Below, in pieces: positions 2,695 through 25,931 of a stretch of 26,399 nt of DNA. This stretch comes from a virus, in IMG/VR virus record IMGVR_UViG_3300027905_000210, positions 1 through 26,399 of that record. The stretch is one strand, 5' to 3'. The notes beneath the pieces were generated by a model. That model saw only the letters and a program-made list of their open reading frames with translations, ran no database searches and was not told where the DNA came from. Position 1 is the first letter of the stretch, and each line of letters begins with the position of its first letter. A program made the position numbers and the translations under genes.

Positions 2695-3449
2695 CCAGCA
2701 TCGGACCAGGAAAGTGCTACCGATGCGGCGAGCCGGTACTCTCGTGGAGCATTTCGCTCGGACCGGGCATGAGGCCGGAGCATGATGTTTGTTTGAAGCC
2801 GGACATCCGGACTCTCGACGAAGTACAAGCCGACATCGACGCGACGGTCGAGCAAGGACCGTTCAACGAAATCGAGAGCAAACGCAATCGTCAAGTGCTC
2901 GCCGACTGGAACGACGCGATACGCTTCGGCTACACAATTGTTTGGGATAATATGGTGATCGGCCATTGTTCGAAATCATATTGCTTTTGCGTGGCGGAGA
3001 AACTTCGACCGGAAGGATGTCTGTACTTCACTCCCGTTTGGAAACAAAGGAACGATCCCATGAACGACACGATGTCTAATCCCACACGAGCCACTGCCAC
3101 TGCTCTCGTTAACAAGTGGGCGGCCGATTGGGGGAGCCTCTCACTCTCCGGAGGCGGTGCTCTGAGCGATTTGATCGACCGTGTAACCAAGGCGCTCTCC
3201 CCGCCTGTGCCGCCGACTCCGCGTACATGGGACGGCAAGCCGGTCGTTGACCGTTATTGTGTGATCGGTGTTGATGCTTATCAGCGGACGTGGTTGCCGA
3301 CACTCGCTGAGGCGCTCGATCATGCAGGTACGCTGTTTGAACGCGGCAAGGACAACAGCAAGAAGGGGTTCCTGATATTCTCCGATCCGCACACCGCCGT
3401 CATCTTCTTCATTGGCGGCTTGTTCGGTAGTCTGCGCTATGACGGCTAA
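2691..3449 (+). CDS. unknown protein with N-terminal CxxC motif
   Basis: The 252-residue frame starts at the ATG overlapping the previous stop; an ATG at 2667 would overlap by 28 bases and is less likely. CYRCGEP near residue 9 and a later Cys are consistent with a small zinc-binding module. From about residue 124 (MNDTMSNPTRATATALVNKW) the protein changes character, and an internal ATG at 3061 follows AAAGGAA. This may be two fused modules or a gene with an internal start. Neither half is recognised. Confidence 0.5.
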   Translation: MTSIGPGKCYRCGEPVLSWSISLGPGMRPEHDVCLKPDIRTLDEVQADIDATVEQGPFNEIESKRNRQVLADWNDAIRFGYTIVWDNMVIGHCSKSYCFCVAEKLRPEGCLYFTPVWKQRNDPMNDTMSNPTRATATALVNKWAADWGSLSLSGGGALSDLIDRVTKALSPPVPPTPRTWDGKPVVDRYCVIGVDAYQRTWLPTLAEALDHAGTLFERGKDNSKKGFLIFSDPHTAVIFFIGGLFGSLRYDG

Positions 3450-3511
3450 CCTTTAATAAGGGAGCCGAACCGTCTCCATATTGAAGGTTGCCGATAACAA
3501 GGGAGTTGACG

Positions 3512-3979: not shown

Positions 3980-4304
3980 GTCGATCCTTAAGGGCGATCC
4001 GGTTCTGATCCAACACGCAGCCCTGGTCGCGCCTTATGATAATCGAGCGCACGTCGCGCTTGTGCACGAAGAGGGTCGCCGAGCGGCTACTATTCTGCTC
4101 GGCGTCGCCAAGGGTGCGCTCGCAACCGGTTATCCGACTATGGAGAAGCCGGTGGTGAAAGCCGCAATGAGCGCCCATCTGCGGGCGATTGAGACGGCAT
4201 TGAACCCGAAGGGGTATGACTGGACGCACCGCCTCGCGGCAGTGGCTCACGTGCGCGCGGCTATCGAGCTTTGGTCAGTTGCGGTCTCGATGCATCAGAC
4301 TTAA
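3909..4304 (+). CDS. unknown helical protein
   Basis: The 131-residue, Ala-rich, mostly helical protein overlaps the preceding gene by about 70 bases; an ATG at 3942 would shorten the overlap. Its TAA interlocks with the stop of the minus-strand primase-helicase gene, so the two are convergent with no spacer. I do not recognise the family. Confidence 0.5.
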   Translation: MPPLPAKLTPRMPYGLHFALRALESILKGDPVLIQHAALVAPYDNRAHVALVHEEGRRAATILLGVAKGALATGYPTMEKPVVKAAMSAHLRAIETALNPKGYDWTHRLAAVAHVRAAIELWSVAVSMHQT

Positions 4305-6985
4305 TTTTCGACGCCCTCAAAGTCGCTGGCGCGCTGAGCATCCGCTTGCTTATTGCTGGCCTTACGCTCACTCTCGTACTGTTCTGCGAGACGATCTTTG
4401 AGCATAGCGTAGCGACCATGCAGGACCCACACACGAATCTTCTGCCCGGAACTCAGGCGCACTTGTTTTGGGTGTTTGATCCCCCGCAGCCGGTCCCGGA
4501 GAAAGTTCGGGACGGTCGCTGTCGTCAGTCGATTGGCTCGCTGAATCGTGGACGGCATTGCCTCCACAATGTCGGTGATGGTGACGACGTTGCGAGTCAG
4601 TGGGACGTTGCCTTCGTTTTCAATAAGCCATGTCTCCGCGTCGGTGCGCGACAGTTCGATCATGGTTTCCTTCGCTGCGGACCATGGTGCTCGGCTAAGC
4701 CCGTTGTAGATGATCTTTACTTCGTTGCCGGCCCGGTCCTTGGTAACCAGCGGGAAGTCCCCGATCTTGCGATCCAAAAGTTCTTGGTATATCGCGGGCA
4801 CCATGTCGGGGTCGCGCGCGGGCATACCCGGTTCATCAGGGACGGCGGCGAGCAGCGGAGCGTAGTAAGCAGCTTCCTCGTCGGGAGCTTTTGTCTCCGC
4901 GAGGGTCTCGATAATGAACCAACGCCGATCCTTGTCGTCAACCGGGAGCGCATCCGTGTGATTGGTGATCCCCAACATGGCGGCGTAGTTCGGAATTTTG
5001 AACGCCGGGATACCTTTCATGTTCACTTCGACAGATGTCTCGGTGATAAGGTCGCGCATGGCATTGATGTTCTCGCGGCGCCCGACCTGCATCACTTCTT
5101 CGAGGAGGCACAGGCGGCAGTCTTTGAGCCACGAGTTGAAGTCACCGCCCATCGACGAGTTCTTCGGGCGCTGTGTGTTGTTCTCCCCGATGATTTGCTC
5201 CATGACGCGGGCGATCCAGCTTTTGCCGGTGCCGGTTTCGCGACCGACAATGAGGAGCGCGTGATTGGGTTTGCGCGAGGGGTTTTGAATGACCCACGCC
5301 ATCCAATTCAGCACGGCGTTGCGGTCGTTAGGGTCCGGAAACAGATACTCAAGATGTTTGTTCCACAGCGTCGTATCGCCGGGCATTGGAGTGACCGGAC
5401 TTGGGCGCCATACATTATACTCGGAGCCATTGATTTCCGGGTGACCGGGGCGAAAGGCAATGACGTTGAAGCGGCGCAGAATGTCTTTCCGCTTGAACAG
5501 ATACCGCGATATGGACGAGGCTCCCTTGGGGCAAAGATAGTTGAATTCCGAGTCGAACTGCGAACCCTCCCAATTCATCGTAGGTTTAAGCCGGTTGATG
5601 AATCGCTTGATACCGGTGACCCAAACCCAACGATTGCACAGTTCGGTGAGCGCGCCCCAAGTCTTGCCGTCCTTCGTCTTGTGAACGGTGTAATCCGGCT
5701 TCACCGACTCGTCGATTTCGCCGAGGAGGATCATCGGAGTGTTGGTGGATGGTTCATCATCGTCCCAAGGTTCGCGCTCCGGCGCAGCGGTGTCGGCGGG
5801 CGCGGCGGCCGGCGCATCCTCCTCCTCTACAACAGCCGACTCGTTCAGCCACGAGTCATCCTCCGCCGTGGCTTGTGCAGCGGCTTTAGCCGCTTCCCCT
5901 TGCAAACGTGTCCCTTCGTCGCTTTCGTTACCGGGGGCGTCAGTGACCGCTTGCTTTTTGTCCTTGAATGTTTTGCGCCATTCCTTTTGCGCAGCGAGCA
6001 CGGCGTCCGAAGGCTGGAACCGGACCACTCCGCCATCGCCGACTTCATAGTTGGCGCCCCAATTCTCCGGAGTCGGTTCGTCATTCCCCTCATAGTCAGC
6101 GGCGGCAGTAGCCGCGCCCGGTTGTGTTTCTTTGAGGTAGAGCCACGCGTTGTGGACTTTCACGTCGAGCCGGTCTGCGGGCGCCCCTTCAAACGCCTCC
6201 CATTGCGGCACGCATCGTGGATTGTAGTGTTCGAGAAGAAGATTGACCGAGTTGCTTTCCGATATGCCGTGGTCCTTCAAGACGCCAGCGACCATCAACA
6301 GTGTGTTCTCGCCGTTGTTGCCTTGGATAGCGGGCGGCGCATCGGTTTTGAGATAGTCGATAGCCCACTCGACATTCGCGTCGGTGTCCAACTCGATCAC
6401 CGGGGTTTGGTCCGCCTCCGCTTGATTGGTGTTGCGGAGATAAAGACCAAACCAGTCTGGCGTTGGCGCTATGCGTTCGTCGTTGATGGCTTCATAAGTA
6501 CCAGCAACTTGACGGGCGGCCGGATCGTCGTCAGTCACGCAACCGGGCAACAGCACGTAGTTGGGCGAGTCCACGTCCCGACCAAAGCCATTGACCCCGA
6601 GCCGGCACTTGTGGGTAACTCCGTTGGCCTCCTCAAAATAGAAGTGGAAGCCGCCGCTCGGCGTGCGCACGATAAACGTTGGCGGGAAAGCGCCGTGCTT
6701 AGCGAAAAGATTTTCGAGTGTTTGCTCGCCGACTTTGCCGGGCTTCATGTCGCCATCGACGACAACGACTCCGGACTTCTTGAGGGCCAAGCCCCAATTG
6801 CAGTTGCGGTACGCCGAGTTCCACTTGCGGATTTGAATGATGTCGTTGGACGCTTGTTCCAGGCCGGGTCCCAAGGGAATGCACGGCGGGTCTTTCTTGA
6901 GCGAGCGGATCGGGAAAATGAACCAGTTTGGGTGAGCCTGCAAATTTTTGAACGCAACGTTAGTAAGGGTGTCTCCGGGATTCAT
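4301..6985 (-). CDS. fused primase-polymerase / SF3 helicase
   Basis: The 894-residue replicative protein contains two enzymes. Residues about 15-200 form an archaeo-eukaryotic (PrimPol-type) primase: VVVVDGD puts the metal-binding acidic pair at Asp77/Asp79, and TPSGGFHFYF puts the conserved His at 114. A flexible Ala/Glu-rich linker follows (about 330-415). Residues about 440-700 are a superfamily 3, DUF5906/VirE-like helicase: Walker A GRETGTGK at 581-588, Walker B LCLLEE near 625-630, motif C GITNHTDAL at 672-680 and an arginine pair near 687-688. It would make primers and unwind the origin. The start has GAGG seven bases upstream. It is the only confident gene on this strand, divergent from 7100 and convergent with 3909-4304. 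Confidence 0.9.
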   Translation of the reverse strand: MNPGDTLTNVAFKNLQAHPNWFIFPIRSLKKDPPCIPLGPGLEQASNDIIQIRKWNSAYRNCNWGLALKKSGVVVVDGDMKPGKVGEQTLENLFAKHGAFPPTFIVRTPSGGFHFYFEEANGVTHKCRLGVNGFGRDVDSPNYVLLPGCVTDDDPAARQVAGTYEAINDERIAPTPDWFGLYLRNTNQAEADQTPVIELDTDANVEWAIDYLKTDAPPAIQGNNGENTLLMVAGVLKDHGISESNSVNLLLEHYNPRCVPQWEAFEGAPADRLDVKVHNAWLYLKETQPGAATAAADYEGNDEPTPENWGANYEVGDGGVVRFQPSDAVLAAQKEWRKTFKDKKQAVTDAPGNESDEGTRLQGEAAKAAAQATAEDDSWLNESAVVEEEDAPAAAPADTAAPEREPWDDDEPSTNTPMILLGEIDESVKPDYTVHKTKDGKTWGALTELCNRWVWVTGIKRFINRLKPTMNWEGSQFDSEFNYLCPKGASSISRYLFKRKDILRRFNVIAFRPGHPEINGSEYNVWRPSPVTPMPGDTTLWNKHLEYLFPDPNDRNAVLNWMAWVIQNPSRKPNHALLIVGRETGTGKSWIARVMEQIIGENNTQRPKNSSMGGDFNSWLKDCRLCLLEEVMQVGRRENINAMRDLITETSVEVNMKGIPAFKIPNYAAMLGITNHTDALPVDDKDRRWFIIETLAETKAPDEEAAYYAPLLAAVPDEPGMPARDPDMVPAIYQELLDRKIGDFPLVTKDRAGNEVKIIYNGLSRAPWSAAKETMIELSRTDAETWLIENEGNVPLTRNVVTITDIVEAMPSTIQRANRLTTATVPNFLRDRLRGIKHPKQVRLSSGQKIRVWVLHGRYAMLKDRLAEQYESERKASNKQADAQRASDFEGVEN

Positions 6986-7062
6986 AGGGATGCCTCATGA
7001 CAGTGGCGGGGGGACGGTGTTCGATAGCAGATGATTCAAAACAACGCAACAGTCAATCGCAC

Positions 7063-11845: not shown

Positions 11846-12870
11846 CCGATGAACAACCCCAACTTAAGAAGATCGCGCTTCAAGGTCTCGGGCGTGTCGG
11901 CTCGACTATTGCGGCGATCCTCAAGAACCCCGCTCCGCTGCGATATGAAGTCGTGGCAAAAGACGTGTTGGACGACGATGATCTTGTCGGCGCGTTCGCA
12001 GTTATCAATGCGGCGCCATACTTCACATCAGTTCCGCTTGCTACGAAGGCTGTGTTGGGTGGTGCCCACTATCTCGACATGACTGAGGATGTCGAAGTTA
12101 CCCGCGAGTTGCGCGACCTTGCCGAGACTCTGCCAATCATGAGCGAAGCCGCTTGTGGCGTAGCAATCATTCCGCAATGCGGATTGGCGCCGGGTGTTGT
12201 CTCGATTATAGCCGGGCATATGGCTCGTAAATTCGAGAAGCTCGACACTCTAAAGATTCGCGTCGGGGCGCTCCCGCGTCACCCGAACAATATGCTCGGC
12301 TACGCGCAGACCTGGAATCTTGACGGTCTCGTAAATCAGTACCACGGATGGGCTGACGTAGTGCGTGAAGGCGAGCACTGCAAAGTGCCTCCGCTTGTCG
12401 ATGTTGAGGAACTGACCGTCGAGGGCGGTCAGTATGAGGCGTTCACTACCGCCGGAGGTATTGGCACGCTTTGCGATTCGTTTCCCAAAGCCCGGACGAT
12501 CAACTACAAGACCATCCGGTATCCCGGACACGCGAAGCTCATGCGGTTTTTAATAGAGGACATGGGACTTAGCCGTGTCGAACTTAAGAACGCGCTCGCA
12601 CGCGCTCTGCCGTTAATAGATCAAGATGTCGTTTTGATTTCGATTTCGGCGACCGGCATTGGCGGCGGCCTGCTTCGGCAGTTGACCTATTCCAAAGTAG
12701 TGCTCGGCGTGCCCGGTCGCAGCGCCTTACAGACGACGACGGCGGGTGCAACTTGTGCGGTGCTTGACTTATTGACCGAAGGCGCGATAGAACAGCGCGG
12801 TTTCATTCGGCAAGAGAACATCCCTCTTGAGGCTTTTGTGAAAAATCGTTTTGGCCGAGGATTTGCATGA
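11842..12870 (+). CDS. saccharopine dehydrogenase-like oxidoreductase
   Basis: The 342-residue protein has a Rossmann start, KKIALQGLGRVGSTIA, with the GxGxxG-type dinucleotide site near residues 14-19. The family core NAAPYFTSVPLATKAVLGG and HYLDMTEDVEVTRELRDL (about 60-95) follows, then QCGLAPGVVSIIAGHMA. These match saccharopine dehydrogenase/Lys9-type and related lysine or carboxynorspermidine dehydrogenases, which use NAD(P)H to join or split amino acids. The length is close to the short, single-subunit members. The substrate is unknown. The ATG overlaps the previous stop; the 3' end overlaps an endonuclease gene. Such a metabolic enzyme is unusual in a phage replication region. Confidence 0.82.
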   Translation: MTDEQPQLKKIALQGLGRVGSTIAAILKNPAPLRYEVVAKDVLDDDDLVGAFAVINAAPYFTSVPLATKAVLGGAHYLDMTEDVEVTRELRDLAETLPIMSEAACGVAIIPQCGLAPGVVSIIAGHMARKFEKLDTLKIRVGALPRHPNNMLGYAQTWNLDGLVNQYHGWADVVREGEHCKVPPLVDVEELTVEGGQYEAFTTAGGIGTLCDSFPKARTINYKTIRYPGHAKLMRFLIEDMGLSRVELKNALARALPLIDQDVVLISISATGIGGGLLRQLTYSKVVLGVPGRSALQTTTAGATCAVLDLLTEGAIEQRGFIRQENIPLEAFVKNRFGRGFA

Positions 12871-13412
12871 TCGAAAAGAGGGTCACGCGAAGAAAGAAGG
12901 ACGCCGCATACCGTGCTCGACCAGAGGTTAAGAGGCGGAGAGAGGAAACGTCGGCTGCGTGGTACGCTCAAAACCGAACACGAGTAAAGAAGATAAAGGC
13001 TGCGCAATATGCCGAGAACAAAGTGCCTATGCAGGTTAAGAGTCGGCGCTATTATGCCCAAAACAAAGTACAGATAGGCGCGCGAATGAAGAAATATCGG
13101 GCTAAACTTGAAAATCGAGCGCGAAAAATAGCTTATGACTCAGGAATGTGGATTGAAATACCGAATCGCTTACCTCCCGATTTATGTGAATGTTGCAACC
13201 AAAAATCAACTCGCGGATTTCATTTCGATCATTGCCATGAAACAGGTCGGTTTCGTGGGTGGTGCTGTCACCAATGCAATACCGGGCAGACGGCAGCGAA
13301 CGGTGTTCGCGGAGCAAAAATATGGCTTGCATATCTTGAGCGCCCGTGGCAACAAGCCGAGCCGATTAGATGGGCGTATCCAAGGGAGCGGCTAGTCGCC
13401 GTCGCGGCATGA
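12867..13412 (+). CDS. endonuclease VII-like HNH-type nuclease
   Basis: The 181-residue protein has a Lys/Arg-rich N-terminal region with three YAQN/YAEN-type repeats (about 32-70). The catalytic core of the recombination endonuclease VII (T4 gp49) family follows: a CxxC zinc pair at 107/110, FHFDHCHETGRFRG with Asp121, His122 and His124, and CHQCN supplying the second zinc pair at 134/137. Family members cut branched DNA or act as free-standing homing nucleases. The gene is ATGA-coupled at both ends yet looks AT-richer than its neighbours, suggesting a later insertion that kept the operon phase. It is probably a resolvase-like or mobile nuclease; which one is not decided by sequence. Confidence 0.85.
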   Translation: MIEKRVTRRKKDAAYRARPEVKRRREETSAAWYAQNRTRVKKIKAAQYAENKVPMQVKSRRYYAQNKVQIGARMKKYRAKLENRARKIAYDSGMWIEIPNRLPPDLCECCNQKSTRGFHFDHCHETGRFRGWCCHQCNTGQTAANGVRGAKIWLAYLERPWQQAEPIRWAYPRERLVAVAA

Positions 13413-14531: not shown

Positions 14532-14984
14532 ATGACTCAACACGCTAAGCATCCATCAATCCCCGGTTTGTCCGCGACCCGCGACGGTCGCGTATTCCGA
14601 AATGGGCGACAACTAAAAGACCGCCCGGATAAGGATGGCTATCGCATCTTCTCGTTCTGGATGGGTAGCGGATATTTGACTCTGCGCGTTCATAGGGTTG
14701 TTCTCGCGTGCTTTAGGGGCGAAAGCAACCTCGAAAGTGACCACAAAGACCGTAATCGTGCGCACAATGCACTAAGAAATCTCCAATACCGCGACGTGCC
14801 CGCTAACCGACGCAACGTCGGTGTACGATATGACTCGTCATCGGGAATAAGGAATGTGCGCTATCGTCCGTCCCGGCGAAAATGGCAAGCATATTGCCGG
14901 GACGCCGGTCGGTTTAAGTCGCTCGGTCATTTCCAAACAGCCAGAGAAGCTAAGCAAGTAGCGGAGACACGTTATGGCGGGTAA
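14532..14984 (+). CDS. HNH-AP2 homing endonuclease
   Basis: The 150-residue protein pairs an HNH_3-type nuclease with an AP2 DNA-binding domain. The nuclease part (about 35-90) shows VHRVVLACF, ESDHKDRNRAHNALRNLQY (His54, Asp70-His71, Asn79, Asn83). The AP2 part (about 104-145) shows SGIRNVRYRPSRRKWQAYCR and LGHFQTAREA. This pairing is typical of phage free-standing homing nucleases that cut relatives lacking the gene. It overlaps the start of the DUF2800 gene by 11 bases in another frame, so insertion did not break that gene. The DNA looks AT-richer than the flanks. Confidence 0.88.
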   Translation: MTQHAKHPSIPGLSATRDGRVFRNGRQLKDRPDKDGYRIFSFWMGSGYLTLRVHRVVLACFRGESNLESDHKDRNRAHNALRNLQYRDVPANRRNVGVRYDSSSGIRNVRYRPSRRKWQAYCRDAGRFKSLGHFQTAREAKQVAETRYGG

Positions 14985-19208: not shown

Positions 19209-19325
19209 GTACAACGTGCCCCGTTCTTAACTACTCTCCGAATAAATCTAAAACGAAATCAGACACTTGACAGGCCGTTGCAAATCGGCCACACACATCC
19301 TTGCCTAGTCTAGTTGGGTTACACC

Positions 19326-19997
19326 GTGGCTGAACTCTACAAACTGACATTTCCGAATGGCCGGGCGTATATCGGGGTCGCGCTAAACGCGAGACGGCGA
19401 TTTCAACAACATTGCGCGGCGAGAACCGAGGTTGGTTCGGCTATTCGGTTAGTCGGTCGTGAGCAGGTCGCACTTTGTGTTCTTGTTGTTGGGACTTCGG
19501 AATATCTTTATGGACTTGAACCGCGCGCTATTGAAGTCTTTCAAACTCGTTGGCCTCTTGGTTTGAATTTAGCGGCTGGCGGGGAGCGCGGGCGCAACGG
19601 TAAAAATAGACTGCCGCGAAGTCTTGAAAAACAGTCTCAGGCTATGCGCGGAAAAAGACATCCACAGACTACCGAGACGCGTGCCCGAATAGCTGCAACT
19701 CTTACAGGGCGTAAACATTCGCCCGAGTCGATAGAAAAAATGCGCGGTCCTAGACATGGGCCAGAAGCGCGTATGAGAATATCTCGCGCTCAACTTGGGA
19801 AGAAAAAGCCACCGCGCTCATTTGAGCACCGGCAGAATCTATCTCGCGCCAGATTGCCGCCAATGGGATCGCGGTTAGGGCGCACCATTCCAGCGCGGAG
19901 CTTGTGCAGGATTTGGAAAGCGGTTTCGCGTCTAAGACCAAGCTGGCGCTGGAACTGCACTGTCGAAATGCCCGGAGTCGAGGTTGCCGCAAGGTAG
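19326..19997 (+). CDS. GIY-YIG homing endonuclease with chimeric C-terminus
   Basis: The frame starts at GTG 19326 (TTG 19314 also possible); neither has a good Shine-Dalgarno. Residues about 3-85 are a GIY-YIG nuclease: LYKLTFPNGRAYIG carries the two-part signature, and LEPRAIEVFQT supplies the metal-binding Glu before GLNLAAGGE. Residues about 95-175 carry NUMOD3-type DNA-binding repeats (TRARIAATLTGRKHSPESIE and similar). From about base 19853 the frame enters DNA that is antisense to an IS1595-type transposase, so the last 48 or so residues are foreign and meaningless in family terms. The nuclease and repeat core may still work. It sits alone between a terminator and the DUF2815 gene. Confidence 0.75.
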   Translation: MAELYKLTFPNGRAYIGVALNARRRFQQHCAARTEVGSAIRLVGREQVALCVLVVGTSEYLYGLEPRAIEVFQTRWPLGLNLAAGGERGRNGKNRLPRSLEKQSQAMRGKRHPQTTETRARIAATLTGRKHSPESIEKMRGPRHGPEARMRISRAQLGKKKPPRSFEHRQNLSRARLPPMGSRLGRTIPARSLCRIWKAVSRLRPSWRWNCTVEMPGVEVAAR

Positions 19998-22703: not shown

Positions 22704-25700
22704 ATGACCGTGTATCTGGACTTCGAGACTCGTTCTCCTGTTGATCTGACGAAGCTCGGGGCGTGCCGCTATGCGTGGGACGCCTCCACGGCTGTCCTCT
22801 GCATGTGTTGGGCTTACAATCACGACGAGGAAGTCCATCTGTGGCACCGACGCCATGAGGACAAGGGCGTTTGCTGGACCGAGCGAAGCGAGCGCCCCGA
22901 CGAACTGATCGAGCGCATCAAGGGCGGCGAGCTTGTCGAAGCGCACAACGCCAAGTTCGAATACGTCATCTGGAACTTCGTGCTCATGCGCGAGTTTCCC
23001 GAGTTGTTTGATGTGCCGCTGCAAGTGGAGCAGATGCGCTGCTCCGCCGCGAAGGCGTCGTGCCTCTCGCTGCGCCGCAAGTTGGGCGACGCGGCGAACG
23101 ACATCGGCTTGACCGAACGTAAAGATGTGGATGGCTCCCGGTTAATCAACAAGCTCTCGAAACCGATGAAGCCGCGCAAGAAGAAAGGCGTGGTGCCCTC
23201 AACCGAACTGACTTGGTGCGAGGAAGAAATTGAGCATCGCCGCAACTGGAATTACTGCGCGCAGGATGTGCGCACCGAACGTGCGCTGTCCGACTTCTGC
23301 CCGGAAATGACCGAGCGCGAGCTTGAATACTGGCGGATGGACTTCCGCATGAACATGCGCGGGATCAAGCTCGACAAAGCCGCCGCCGAAGATGCTATCG
23401 AGTTATGCCGACGCGAAGTCGTGCGGCTAGACGGCGAAATGCAAGACCTGACCGGCGGTCGAGTGCTCGGAGGCTCCAAACGAATCGCGTTCCGTGCCTG
23501 GGCGAATGAACAAGTAGCCGAACTTAATAAAACAACTCAGCCGAGCAAGTCTCGCGCGCTGGTAGACAGCGCAATGGAACCGCTCGCCGACACGCGAGCC
23601 GACACGCTCAGTTTCGCTTTACATGGTGTCCCTACGAAAGCCGCCGAGGAAGCTAAGGTTGCGCGCAAGCCCGAAATGGACAAGCTCTGGCAGAGCCGAG
23701 GAACTATAGGTGCTACGCTTAAGAAGGCAATGGAAATCTGCCTCGAAGTCAACCGGTCGTCAGTCGCCAAGTTCAAGACCATGAGAGATTCCGTGTGTCC
23801 AGATGGTCGGCTGCACGACATCATGCTCTATAACGGTGCCGACCGCACAGGCCGCTGGTCGGGGCAAGGCGTCCAGCCCCATAACTTCGTGCGTGGCTAC
23901 ATGAAAGAAATGGGGGAGTACACCCTCGCCGACAAAGATGATCCCGAGCGCGGCGAAAAACCGAGTGTGTGGGAAACCCTGCTCACCCGAGACGAATTAG
24001 GCGACCTCGACCTGGACTTCATTACGTTGATCGAGGGCGCGCCGCTGCCGGCTCTCGCGAAGGCGTGTCGCGGGGCATTGATCGCCAGCGACGGCAAGGA
24101 ACTGTATGCAGCCGACTTCAAAGCCATCGAAGCGCGCAAGCTCGCATGGATGGCTAATTGTACATCGCAACTCGACTTGTTCCGAAATAAGGGCGATCCG
24201 TATCTCGCGATGGCAAGTGCCATATACGGTCGAGAAATAACAAAGGCTGACAAGATGGAGAGGCAACTAGGTAAAAAATGCTTCGCCGCCGACACTAGAG
24301 TATTGACGGATCGGGGTATTATGCCTATAGTCGAAGTTCTCGCTAGTGATCGGCTATGGGATGGTAAAGAATGGGTAACACACGACGGTCTAGTAGATCG
24401 GGGCGTAAGAGAGGTTTGTTTGTTCGGAGGAACATGGGCAACCCCGGAGCACCCGGTGTCCGGTGGGGGAAATTGGTATCATTGGGAATCGCTGGCACAA
24501 GACGAAAATATAAGCCTCCGAGCATTGGCGTACGCTTCGGGGAACTTACCATCCGGGGGTACGCATACGGAATCCGTGGCGGGGTTGTCGGCGCGGTCGC
24601 CTCATGTTCATGCGGCGCTCCGTTTCATTTGGTCTATTTTCCAAACCTGCGTGCCGGACGTTCGACTCGATGTAATAAATGCGCTAAAAAAGCTGCGGGG
24701 CATTGGAGAAAGCATTTTTGGGGGTATGCTGACATCGTGCCCAACGACGCTCATCGGGTTCGGCTCCTTAACAGGATTTCAGCTTGCATTGGACGATGTT
24801 CAAGTTCTGGCAACCCGGCATGGGAGCACTACGGAAAGCGGAGGATCAAAGTCTGGCCCGCTTGGCTTAAGGATAGACGAAAATTTCTCAGGTATTTGGT
24901 CACGCTACCGGGGTGGGACAACTCCATTCTCGAACTTGATCGTAAAAACAATGACCGAGGCTATCAACCAGGGAATTTGCATTTCACAACTAAAAAACAA
25001 AATATGGCAAACCGTCCAACGGTTGCAGACTTGCGCAGACGGATCGCGTATCTTGAAGCGTGTCTACGACATTGCAAATGCCGGTCCTAGGCGCCGTTTC
25101 ACTATTATAACAGATGTTGGACCTCTAATTGTTCATAATTCGGTTTTGGGCCTCGGGTACAATATGGGATGGGAGAAGTTCCAACTTACCGTCTGGAACG
25201 AGGAAGGTATTTGGCTCGACGATGCATTCTGCAAGAAGGTCGTTCAAATCTACCGTAAGAAGCAATGTCCCGAAATGCCGGTGCTGTGGAAAGCAATCGA
25301 ACGCGCCGCCATCGCAGCGGTGCAAGAGGGCGACGAGCACGTTGCTATTCCCGGTCCCGGCCAAGTCTCTTACTTTGTCAACGGGCGCTTCTTACATTGT
25401 CGGTTGCCGAGCGGTCGTCTGCTTGCATATCTTGATCCCGAAGTCCACGAACGGATCAATTATCGCTACATGGCGAAGAATGAGCGTGGAACACCGTGCT
25501 TGGTGACGTTCCAGTCGAAGATCGGCGTCCCCATGAGCCGGGTCAAGCGCCACGCCGAGCAGATTGCCGAGCGTCAACGCAAGACCCTGAATGGCGAACA
25601 ACCCGAAACCTTCCTGTCGCCCCACCTGTCGTTCATGGGGCGCCACATCGTCACGAAAGAGTGGAAAAGGCTCGGAACGCACGGTGGGTCGCTCACTGAA

Positions 25701-25931
25701 AACGCCGACCAAGCGTCGAGCCGGGACCTTCTCGCCGAAGCGATGTATAGGGTTGACCAAGACGAGCGGTTCGATTTACTCTTGAGTATTCACGACGAGG
25801 TTATCGCGGAAGCCCCCATCGGAACCATGAAGGTTTCCGAGTTTGAGTCTATCATGAGCGAGGTTCCAATATGGGCGCCGGGGATGCCAATAGAGGCGGA
25901 GGGCTGGATAGGCCCACGGCTGCGCAAATGA
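22704..25931 (+). CDS. family A DNA polymerase with 3'-5' exonuclease, interrupted by an intein
   Basis: The 1075-codon precursor contains a replicative phage polymerase. The DEDDy proofreading domain shows YLDFETR (Asp6, Glu8), AHNAKFEYVIW (79-90) and YCAQDVRTERAL (about 180). The polymerase domain shows motif A AADFKAIEAR (Asp471, Glu476), motif B split as RQLGKK (520-525) and SVLGLGYNMG (813-822), and motif C SIHDEV (His1030, Asp1031). Residues 526-812 are an intein sitting between the essential motif B Lys and the O-helix residue L815. Splicing is therefore required for an active enzyme, and the mature enzyme would be 788 residues. GAGG precedes the ATG. Its stop overlaps the next ATG. 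Confidence 0.93.
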   Translation: MTVYLDFETRSPVDLTKLGACRYAWDASTAVLCMCWAYNHDEEVHLWHRRHEDKGVCWTERSERPDELIERIKGGELVEAHNAKFEYVIWNFVLMREFPELFDVPLQVEQMRCSAAKASCLSLRRKLGDAANDIGLTERKDVDGSRLINKLSKPMKPRKKKGVVPSTELTWCEEEIEHRRNWNYCAQDVRTERALSDFCPEMTERELEYWRMDFRMNMRGIKLDKAAAEDAIELCRREVVRLDGEMQDLTGGRVLGGSKRIAFRAWANEQVAELNKTTQPSKSRALVDSAMEPLADTRADTLSFALHGVPTKAAEEAKVARKPEMDKLWQSRGTIGATLKKAMEICLEVNRSSVAKFKTMRDSVCPDGRLHDIMLYNGADRTGRWSGQGVQPHNFVRGYMKEMGEYTLADKDDPERGEKPSVWETLLTRDELGDLDLDFITLIEGAPLPALAKACRGALIASDGKELYAADFKAIEARKLAWMANCTSQLDLFRNKGDPYLAMASAIYGREITKADKMERQLGKKCFAADTRVLTDRGIMPIVEVLASDRLWDGKEWVTHDGLVDRGVREVCLFGGTWATPEHPVSGGGNWYHWESLAQDENISLRALAYASGNLPSGGTHTESVAGLSARSPHVHAALRFIWSIFQTCVPDVRLDVINALKKLRGIGESIFGGMLTSCPTTLIGFGSLTGFQLALDDVQVLATRHGSTTESGGSKSGPLGLRIDENFSGIWSRYRGGTTPFSNLIVKTMTEAINQGICISQLKNKIWQTVQRLQTCADGSRILKRVYDIANAGPRRRFTIITDVGPLIVHNSVLGLGYNMGWEKFQLTVWNEEGIWLDDAFCKKVVQIYRKKQCPEMPVLWKAIERAAIAAVQEGDEHVAIPGPGQVSYFVNGRFLHCRLPSGRLLAYLDPEVHERINYRYMAKNERGTPCLVTFQSKIGVPMSRVKRHAEQIAERQRKTLNGEQPETFLSPHLSFMGRHIVTKEWKRLGTHGGSLTENADQASSRDLLAEAMYRVDQDERFDLLLSIHDEVIAEAPIGTMKVSEFESIMSEVPIWAPGMPIEAEGWIGPRLRK
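24426..24430 (+). promoter_or_regulatory. possible ribosome-binding site of the nested endonuclease
   Basis: GGAGG lies three bases before the out-of-frame ATG at 24434 inside the intein. The spacing is short but the core is strong. The upstream ATG at 24371 lacks a comparable site, so 24434 is preferred as the start. Confidence 0.45.
24434..25090 (+). CDS. HNH-type homing endonuclease nested out of frame in the intein
   Basis: The 218-residue frame (239 from ATG 24371) runs one base out of phase with the polymerase-intein frame, entirely within the intein DNA. It matches a common phage HNH family. The N-terminal part has SIGVRFGELTIRGYAYG and a zinc-ribbon-like CxC...CxxC (CSCG, then CNKC). 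The nuclease part has RLLNRISACIGRC, NPAWEHYGKRRIKVWPAW, LELDRKNNDRGYQPGNLHF and TTKKQNMANR, mirroring the family consensus LDRIDNxGxYxPxNCRWAT. It would be made as a separate protein by internal initiation and could spread the intein by cutting intein-less polymerase genes. Inteins normally carry the endonuclease in frame, so this is unusual. Expression is not shown. Confidence 0.85.
   Translation: MGNPGAPGVRWGKLVSLGIAGTRRKYKPPSIGVRFGELTIRGYAYGIRGGVVGAVASCSCGAPFHLVYFPNLRAGRSTRCNKCAKKAAGHWRKHFWGYADIVPNDAHRVRLLNRISACIGRCSSSGNPAWEHYGKRRIKVWPAWLKDRRKFLRYLVTLPGWDNSILELDRKNNDRGYQPGNLHFTTKKQNMANRPTVADLRRRIAYLEACLRHCKCRS

Follow-up and report, generated by a model that had tools for sequence, protein, structure and literature searches.

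A phage DNA polymerase intein with an HNH-family endonuclease encoded in an overlapping reading frame

The usual description of an intein is of one polypeptide with both a splicing and a cutting activity. The 'fractured genes' of Dassa et al. (2009, NAR 37:2560, cited in PMC10448857) reportedly contain split inteins with a free-standing endonuclease gene between the two intein halves. A reference carried by PMC5050341 credits an intein containing an HNH-family endonuclease to Dalgaard et al. 1997. The ShiLan domain, an out-of-frame HNH element in a mycobacteriophage methylase, has been described as neither an intein nor an intron (Arsenault, Gosselin and Gogarten 2025, Genes 16:178, PMC11855218). 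Where it touches on overlapping frames, that paper cites a preprint on phage inteins of 'non-canonical architecture' (bioRxiv 10.1101/2025.01.02.630785), which may cover part of the subject for actinobacteriophages. Our searches of an open-access library turned up no description of an intein with a nuclease encoded out of frame within it.

In this study, we analysed a 26.4-kb virus contig (the window, 26,399 nucleotides) in which the gene for a phage family A DNA polymerase contains an intein (Table 1). The PHROGs phage DNA polymerase match ran to residue 525 of the polymerase frame and resumed from residue 814. The intein starts with CFAADTRVLT...LWDGKEWVTHDG...ATPEHPV and ends with VYDIANAGPRRRFTIITDVGPLIVHN, with S as the next residue. 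All of the splicing blocks were present, namely Cys526, TPEH at 580-583 (T580 to H583), the block VYDIANAGPRRRF, VHN (H811-N812), and Ser813, and the intein positions C1, T55, H58, H286, and N287 were invariant in a 31-sequence alignment. In the AF2 model, intein residues 1-94 and 254-287 formed a Hint fold (pLDDT ~95-98) and residues 95-253 were disordered. The first 29 Foldseek matches of this model (best E 4e-3, prob 1.00) were to inteins or to domains resembling them. Family and profile searches of the polymerase frame found no nuclease-domain match in the intein middle. Instead, an HNH ORF sits entirely within the polymerase ORF in the -1 (+2) frame. The in-frame homing endonuclease of a canonical intein is thus missing from this intein, since the HNH is in frame -1 and the in-frame middle is disordered in AF2. 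The original prediction had placed an intein with an out-of-frame HNH nuclease at 24279-25139, and its coordinates, frames, and motifs agreed with the ORFs, the PHROGs matches, and the splicing blocks.

Table 1. Coordinates of the polymerase, intein, and nested nuclease features in the window
Feature	Position	Strand	Evidence
Precursor of the family A DNA polymerase, intein included, 1075 aa	22704..25931	+	ORF; matches to Pfam DNA_pol_A and to PHROG DNA polymerase flanking the insert
N-extein, polymerase residues 1-525, ending ...RQLGKK	22704..24278	+	Alignment with intein-containing phage polymerases
Intein, 287 aa, Cys526-Asn812, +1 residue Ser813	24279..25139	+	Blocks C..DTRVLT, WDGxEWV, TPEH, VYDIANAGPRRRF, and VHN conserved in 31-sequence alignment; AF2 Hint model
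Hint N-part, ordered, intein residues 1-94	24279..24560	+	AF2 pLDDT ~95-98; top Foldseek matches all inteins
TGGGATGGTAAAGAATGG, intein motif W-D-G-K-E-W, also SD-like stretch and conserved HNH-frame ATG (24371)	24357..24374	+	Motif and start comparison across loci
Nested gene for an HNH-family endonuclease of 239 aa, in the -1 frame with respect to the polymerase	24371..25090 (codons 24371-25087)	+	ORF; PHROG; permutation test; 38-locus comparison; AF2 confident ~50-220
GGAGGAACATG, second candidate HNH start, ATG 24434, strong SD, short spacer	24426..24436	+	Sequence; SD duplex -8.9 kcal/mol, best among the candidate starts of the locus
Folded nuclease core: zinc ribbon (C79, C81, C101, C104 invariant) and HNH-like core, ending LDRKNNDRGYQPGNLHF	24518..25030	+	Alignment invariants; pLDDT mostly above 90
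Intein middle, 'shadow' of the HNH frame, intein residues 95-253, predicted disordered	24561..25037	+	pLDDT <50 throughout; median 26% identity to relatives vs 43-62% for splicing blocks
Hint C-part, ordered, intein residues 254-287	25038..25139	+	pLDDT mostly 93-97
C-extein, polymerase residues 813-1075	25140..25931	+	Alignment with intein-containing phage polymerases

The protein of the nested frame matched two families named HNH endonuclease, PHROG 374 (E 1.4e-20) and PHROG 3377 (E 1.2e-14). No HNH match to this protein was found in Pfam, a profile search against PDB sequences gave chance coiled-coil matches only, and Foldseek found no significant match for its AF2 model. With VIA-align, PacI ranked first for the model, and the match was marginal (Z 5.4, 87 residues, rmsd 3.5), with a Z that may reflect merely a common arrangement. 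The canonical HNH histidines were not evident. The frame was intact in the window and retained the invariant residues of the family.

Further nuclease genes were seen elsewhere in the window, at 14532-14984 (HNH endonuclease, PHROG 99), 19314-19997 (homing endonuclease, PHROG 314), and 12867-13412 (endonuclease VII-like). A separate long antisense ORF was also observed. The primase gene at 4301-6985 on the minus strand (PHROG 1156, E 1.3e-56) lies opposite a fully open 909-aa ORF at 4271-7000 on the plus strand; its 895 codons include no TTA, CTA, or TCA, and about 9 were predicted from the other genes of the window.

A codon-permutation test was performed in which synonymous codons were shuffled in one frame, its protein being kept, and stops were counted in the other. 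With the polymerase protein fixed, 8.1 stops were expected in the HNH frame of the window and none of 2000 permutations was stop-free; with the HNH protein fixed, 4.3 stops were expected in the polymerase frame (P=0.0005). No stop was observed in either frame, and the third frame of the overlap contained 17. The openness of both frames, already pointed out in the original prediction, thus exceeded chance. Another 28 loci of the window's class likewise had no stop in either frame, where roughly 2-8 stops were expected in the polymerase frame and 5-12 in the HNH frame, and the same held for the second offset class described below, two split-gene loci excepted. As a control, 55 loci of distant, mostly free-standing HNH relatives were screened, and a long open second frame was found only in L035 and a few ambiguous cases.

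These results bear on whether the nested ORF could be the endonuclease ORF of a group I intron, with the polymerase frame open by accident. HNH ORFs are frequent in phage introns, and gp39 of Sodalis phage SO-1 is annotated as a 'type I self-splicing intron'. However, the polymerase frame was stop-free in 29 of 29 permutation-tested loci, with intact intein blocks that fold as Hint. Rfam gave no match at the gathering score in 7 loci and nothing meaningful in the window at a relaxed threshold. We therefore consider an intron very improbable.

Which of the two proteins is constrained was seen from the nucleotide differences between relatives. In the nuclease core, pairs 80-90% identical differed by 0.137, 0.075, and 0.333 nucleotides per codon at HNH positions 1, 2, and 3. 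Across 38 loci, HNH position 3, equivalent to polymerase position 2, had the most differences in the core and HNH position 2 the fewest. Polymerase position 3 was the fastest in the exteins of related pairs, and this pattern reverses within the overlap. Since differences peak at HNH position 3 there, the nuclease is the constrained protein in the overlap. Purifying selection in both frames had been proposed as a check of the arrangement. It was clear on the HNH frame; the intein frame was selected for its splicing blocks and stop-avoidance only, and the amino acids of the middle were unconserved. The linker sequence is set by the HNH frame, and the amino acids of the intein middle are an unconserved 'shadow' of the nuclease.

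The AF2 models of the two frames were reciprocal, in that where one was ordered the other was mostly disordered. Residues ~50-220 of the HNH-frame model were confident and the first ~40, which overlap the Hint-coding part, were not. Across relatives, the splicing blocks aligned throughout, and the middle was an unconserved Ser/Thr/Arg-rich stretch. The impression that Ser/Thr-rich middles occur in other phage polymerase inteins was thus borne out, since the stretch recurs in the relatives and is not an in-frame nuclease according to the alignment and AF2. So was the view of the middle as lacking a recognisable domain and constrained by the other frame, given the absence of a nuclease match, the disorder, and the position-3 bias that belongs to the HNH.

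The expression of the nuclease was considered from its candidate starts. Among 61 loci of the window's class, 55 have an HNH-frame ATG at the E-W junction of the W-D-G-x-E-W motif or two codons beyond it; in the +1 class, that frame had such an ATG in 8 of 23. The Glu codons of the motif were GAA or GAG in a ratio of 41:13, compared with 527:728 in exteins (Fisher p=9e-7, a guide only because the sequences are not independent). The excess of GAA indicates that the conserved ATG seems to be maintained by codon choice. An SD-like stretch of -6 kcal/mol or lower preceded 66% of the first ATGs of the class compared with 14% of the background, although the protein motif itself (TGG GAY GGN) accounts for part of this signal. 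The window's candidate ATG at 24434 is preceded by GGAGGAAC. Ribosomal frameshifting inside the intein, which would make a fusion of N-extein, N-intein, and HNH with no internal start, would require the constant -1 offset seen within the window's class. It is nevertheless improbable, because many loci have a stop at most two codons before the conserved ATG, the ATG itself is kept by codon choice, the second class has the other offset, and such a fusion would waste polymerase molecules. Internal initiation is the best reading of how the HNH is expressed, as suggested by the codon bias at the conserved ATG.

A tblastn search with the HNH protein matched 225 phage records, most of which were polymerase genes from Jersey-type phages of Salmonella. 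The isolate genomes opened from this search were EBPR siphovirus 2, Vibrio phage 97.13, Pseudomonas MR14, Salmonella Ent1, E. coli Pubbukkers, Sodalis SO-1, and eight more, and each of them has the HNH within the polymerase ORF in the -1 frame, as in the window. When viral contigs were scanned, a single HNH protein as query gave no relatives, and an alignment as query recovered them. The HNH relatives were mostly 36-50% identical to the HNH of the window. Median identities of the window to members of its own class were 46% for the HNH, 43-62% for the splicing blocks, and 29-35% for the exteins. All 38 loci compared have an intact out-of-frame HNH with an unchanged offset, and no homologue of the stop-broken kind, named in the original prediction as evidence against the arrangement, was among them.

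Two surveys seeded with inteins were carried out. The first searched viral contigs with the intein N-terminal block alone, which avoids choosing loci by their HNH. Among its 80 loci, the HNH was in +2, the window's class, in 54, in +1 in 22, absent in 4, and in frame in none (out of frame, 76/80). The second, centred on APSE-2 and partly overlapping the first in that some contigs were common to both, covered 85 inteins in 80 loci, with 56 in +1, 18 in +2, 11 without HNH, and none in frame (out of frame, 74/85). An in-frame HNH counterpart in the same Hint family was sought and was not found in either survey. The guess of a family-wide two-frame design was thus supported by both the 38-locus comparison and the surveys. 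A lone frame-0 HNH match, in L113, was rejected; it begins at codon 369, beyond the end of the 281-aa intein of that locus. A sequencing or assembly frameshift error that split an ordinary in-frame HNH domain from its intein would resemble what is seen in L026, a Salmonella-type phage contig with two frame disruptions in the intein at about 3200-3500 that are probably sequencing errors. As an explanation of the arrangement, such an error can practically be dismissed, because 76 of 80 viral contigs, and many isolate genomes as well, have both intein ends in a common frame and the HNH in a different one.

After near-duplicates were removed from the loci then gathered, 86 distinct nested cases were obtained, 63 in +2 and 23 in +1. 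The host genes were mainly PolA, where the insertions occupy several points near motif B and the YGGK-x-EN-x-Q region, and also included helicase-like and other genes. In one contig (L027/L142), a window-class intein with the HNH nested in the same frame is inserted after ...LLLNRPSE of a helicase-like gene, so the element is not restricted to polymerases. Three loci (L125, L170, and L177) have a DNA polymerase with two serial inteins, the first with its HNH in +2 and the second in +1. Eight bacterial-assembly contigs, one of them from Erwinia, also have the +2 arrangement. At about 4001-5100 of L148 and L178, the host-frame N-intein half stops after ~160 codons and is followed by an HNH in +1, after which the C-intein half (VYDIL..HNC) and the C-extein are in +2. 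From their sequences, these two loci resemble a fractured polA in which each half overlaps the HNH.

The HNH tree placed the 63 +2 sequences in one clade and the 23 +1 sequences in three groups among free-standing HNH genes. The out-of-frame design probably arose at least twice, because a switch of offset would be hard to make without breaking one of the two genes midway. Deep support in the tree was weak (0.38-0.62 for large clades), and the existence of two frame offsets is therefore the main basis for counting origins. The existence of the second offset goes beyond the original prediction, as does the fact that an out-of-frame HNH element outside inteins is already published (PMC11855218).

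Inteins without an HNH were mostly mini-inteins of 110-195 aa or had a shortened middle. The mini-intein L138 retains an apparent remnant of the shadow sequence, which suggests that its nuclease was lost by deletion. Loss does therefore occur, as mini-inteins without HNH and shortened 'shadows' (L138, L164, L165) show, and the HNH frame could in principle be a decaying, non-functional relic beside a mini-intein whose activity alone matters. However, the frame of the window is intact with the invariant residues of the family, and the family has a strong position-3 bias. A relic is thus unlikely.

Mobility was examined in relatives. An inteinless version of the same polymerase, with an exact in-frame 897-bp empty site, is present in the Salmonella phages dunkel and S111. 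Between intein-containing Ent1 and the inteinless alleles, identity was 72% in the 50 nt upstream of the insertion, compared with 98-99% downstream and 91-97% over 800 nt upstream. The short diverged tract beside the insertion in these Jerseyvirus/Salmonella relatives, which are not the contig of the window, resembles the co-conversion that homing leaves. Inteinless alleles and a co-conversion-like flank were thus found in Jerseyvirus relatives.

We conclude that the window very probably carries a mobile intein whose two functions are divided between two overlapping genes, one for Hint splicing and one for an out-of-frame HNH nuclease with an internal start that would serve homing. In the polymerase frame, the two ends would form a Hint domain around a ~160-residue disordered linker, and, judging from the intact blocks, this intein would splice out of the polymerase. 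In the -1 frame, the same linker DNA would encode a free-standing zinc-ribbon/HNH endonuclease, translated from an internal start that is most often the ATG within the WDGxEW motif. The nuclease would cut inteinless polymerase alleles, and repair would copy the whole element in. The HNH frame would dictate the linker sequence, and the intein frame there would need only freedom from stops. Free-standing HNH genes probably invaded intein linkers out of frame at least twice, as the two offsets suggest. It is also likely that the window represents a large phage intein class of at least two origins that carries splicing and homing as overlapping genes, in which the linker is dictated by the nuclease frame and the nuclease start, in the larger class, was carved from WDG-x-EW.

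If this is true, the view of homing inteins as in-frame fusions misses the nuclease of most members of this Hint family. Should the two be separate proteins with separate expression, regulation or loss of homing could leave splicing unaffected. A nuclease one frame over would explain why some phage inteins are annotated with 'splicing domains only', which offers a route to hidden homing endonucleases in existing genomes. The element would also be a natural case of overprinting, with a folded enzyme in one frame and a disordered, stop-avoiding linker in the other, in dozens of divergent lineages and at two offsets.

Canonical inteins with an in-frame homing endonuclease (LAGLIDADG or HNH) share with the window a Hint domain, a nuclease placed in its middle, and presence/absence polymorphism; here, however, the nuclease is a separate protein in another frame and the in-frame middle is disordered. 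The PolA inteins of Jerseyvirus and Dhillonvirus (Salmonella phage vB_SenS-Ent1 gp37; Sodalis phage SO-1 gp38/gp39) are homologous to the element of the window, and the same HNH is nested in them in an identical frame. Ent1 is annotated as having an intein with splicing domains only and SO-1 as having a type I intron, and the overlap is left uninterpreted in those records. In contrast to the 'fractured genes', the host gene of the window is continuous and the nuclease overlaps it, whereas L148 and L178 resemble the split version. Group I introns with HNH ORFs likewise have a nuclease ORF with its own start inside an intervening sequence, but the element of the window has no intron RNA match and its removal would be by protein splicing. 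The ShiLan domain is also a stop-free in-frame insertion in a phage gene whose other frame is an HNH endonuclease with zinc-finger motifs, and its patchy distribution suggests homing (PMC11855218). As in ShiLan, the host frame of the window is open and the HNH lies in another frame, but splicing features are present. ShiLan lacks intein splicing motifs and is believed to remain in the methylase, whereas here the overlapping frame is a complete intein, so that the insert should be removed. The element family of the window further differs from ShiLan in being found mainly in PolA, in having two frame offsets, and in its start-site signature.
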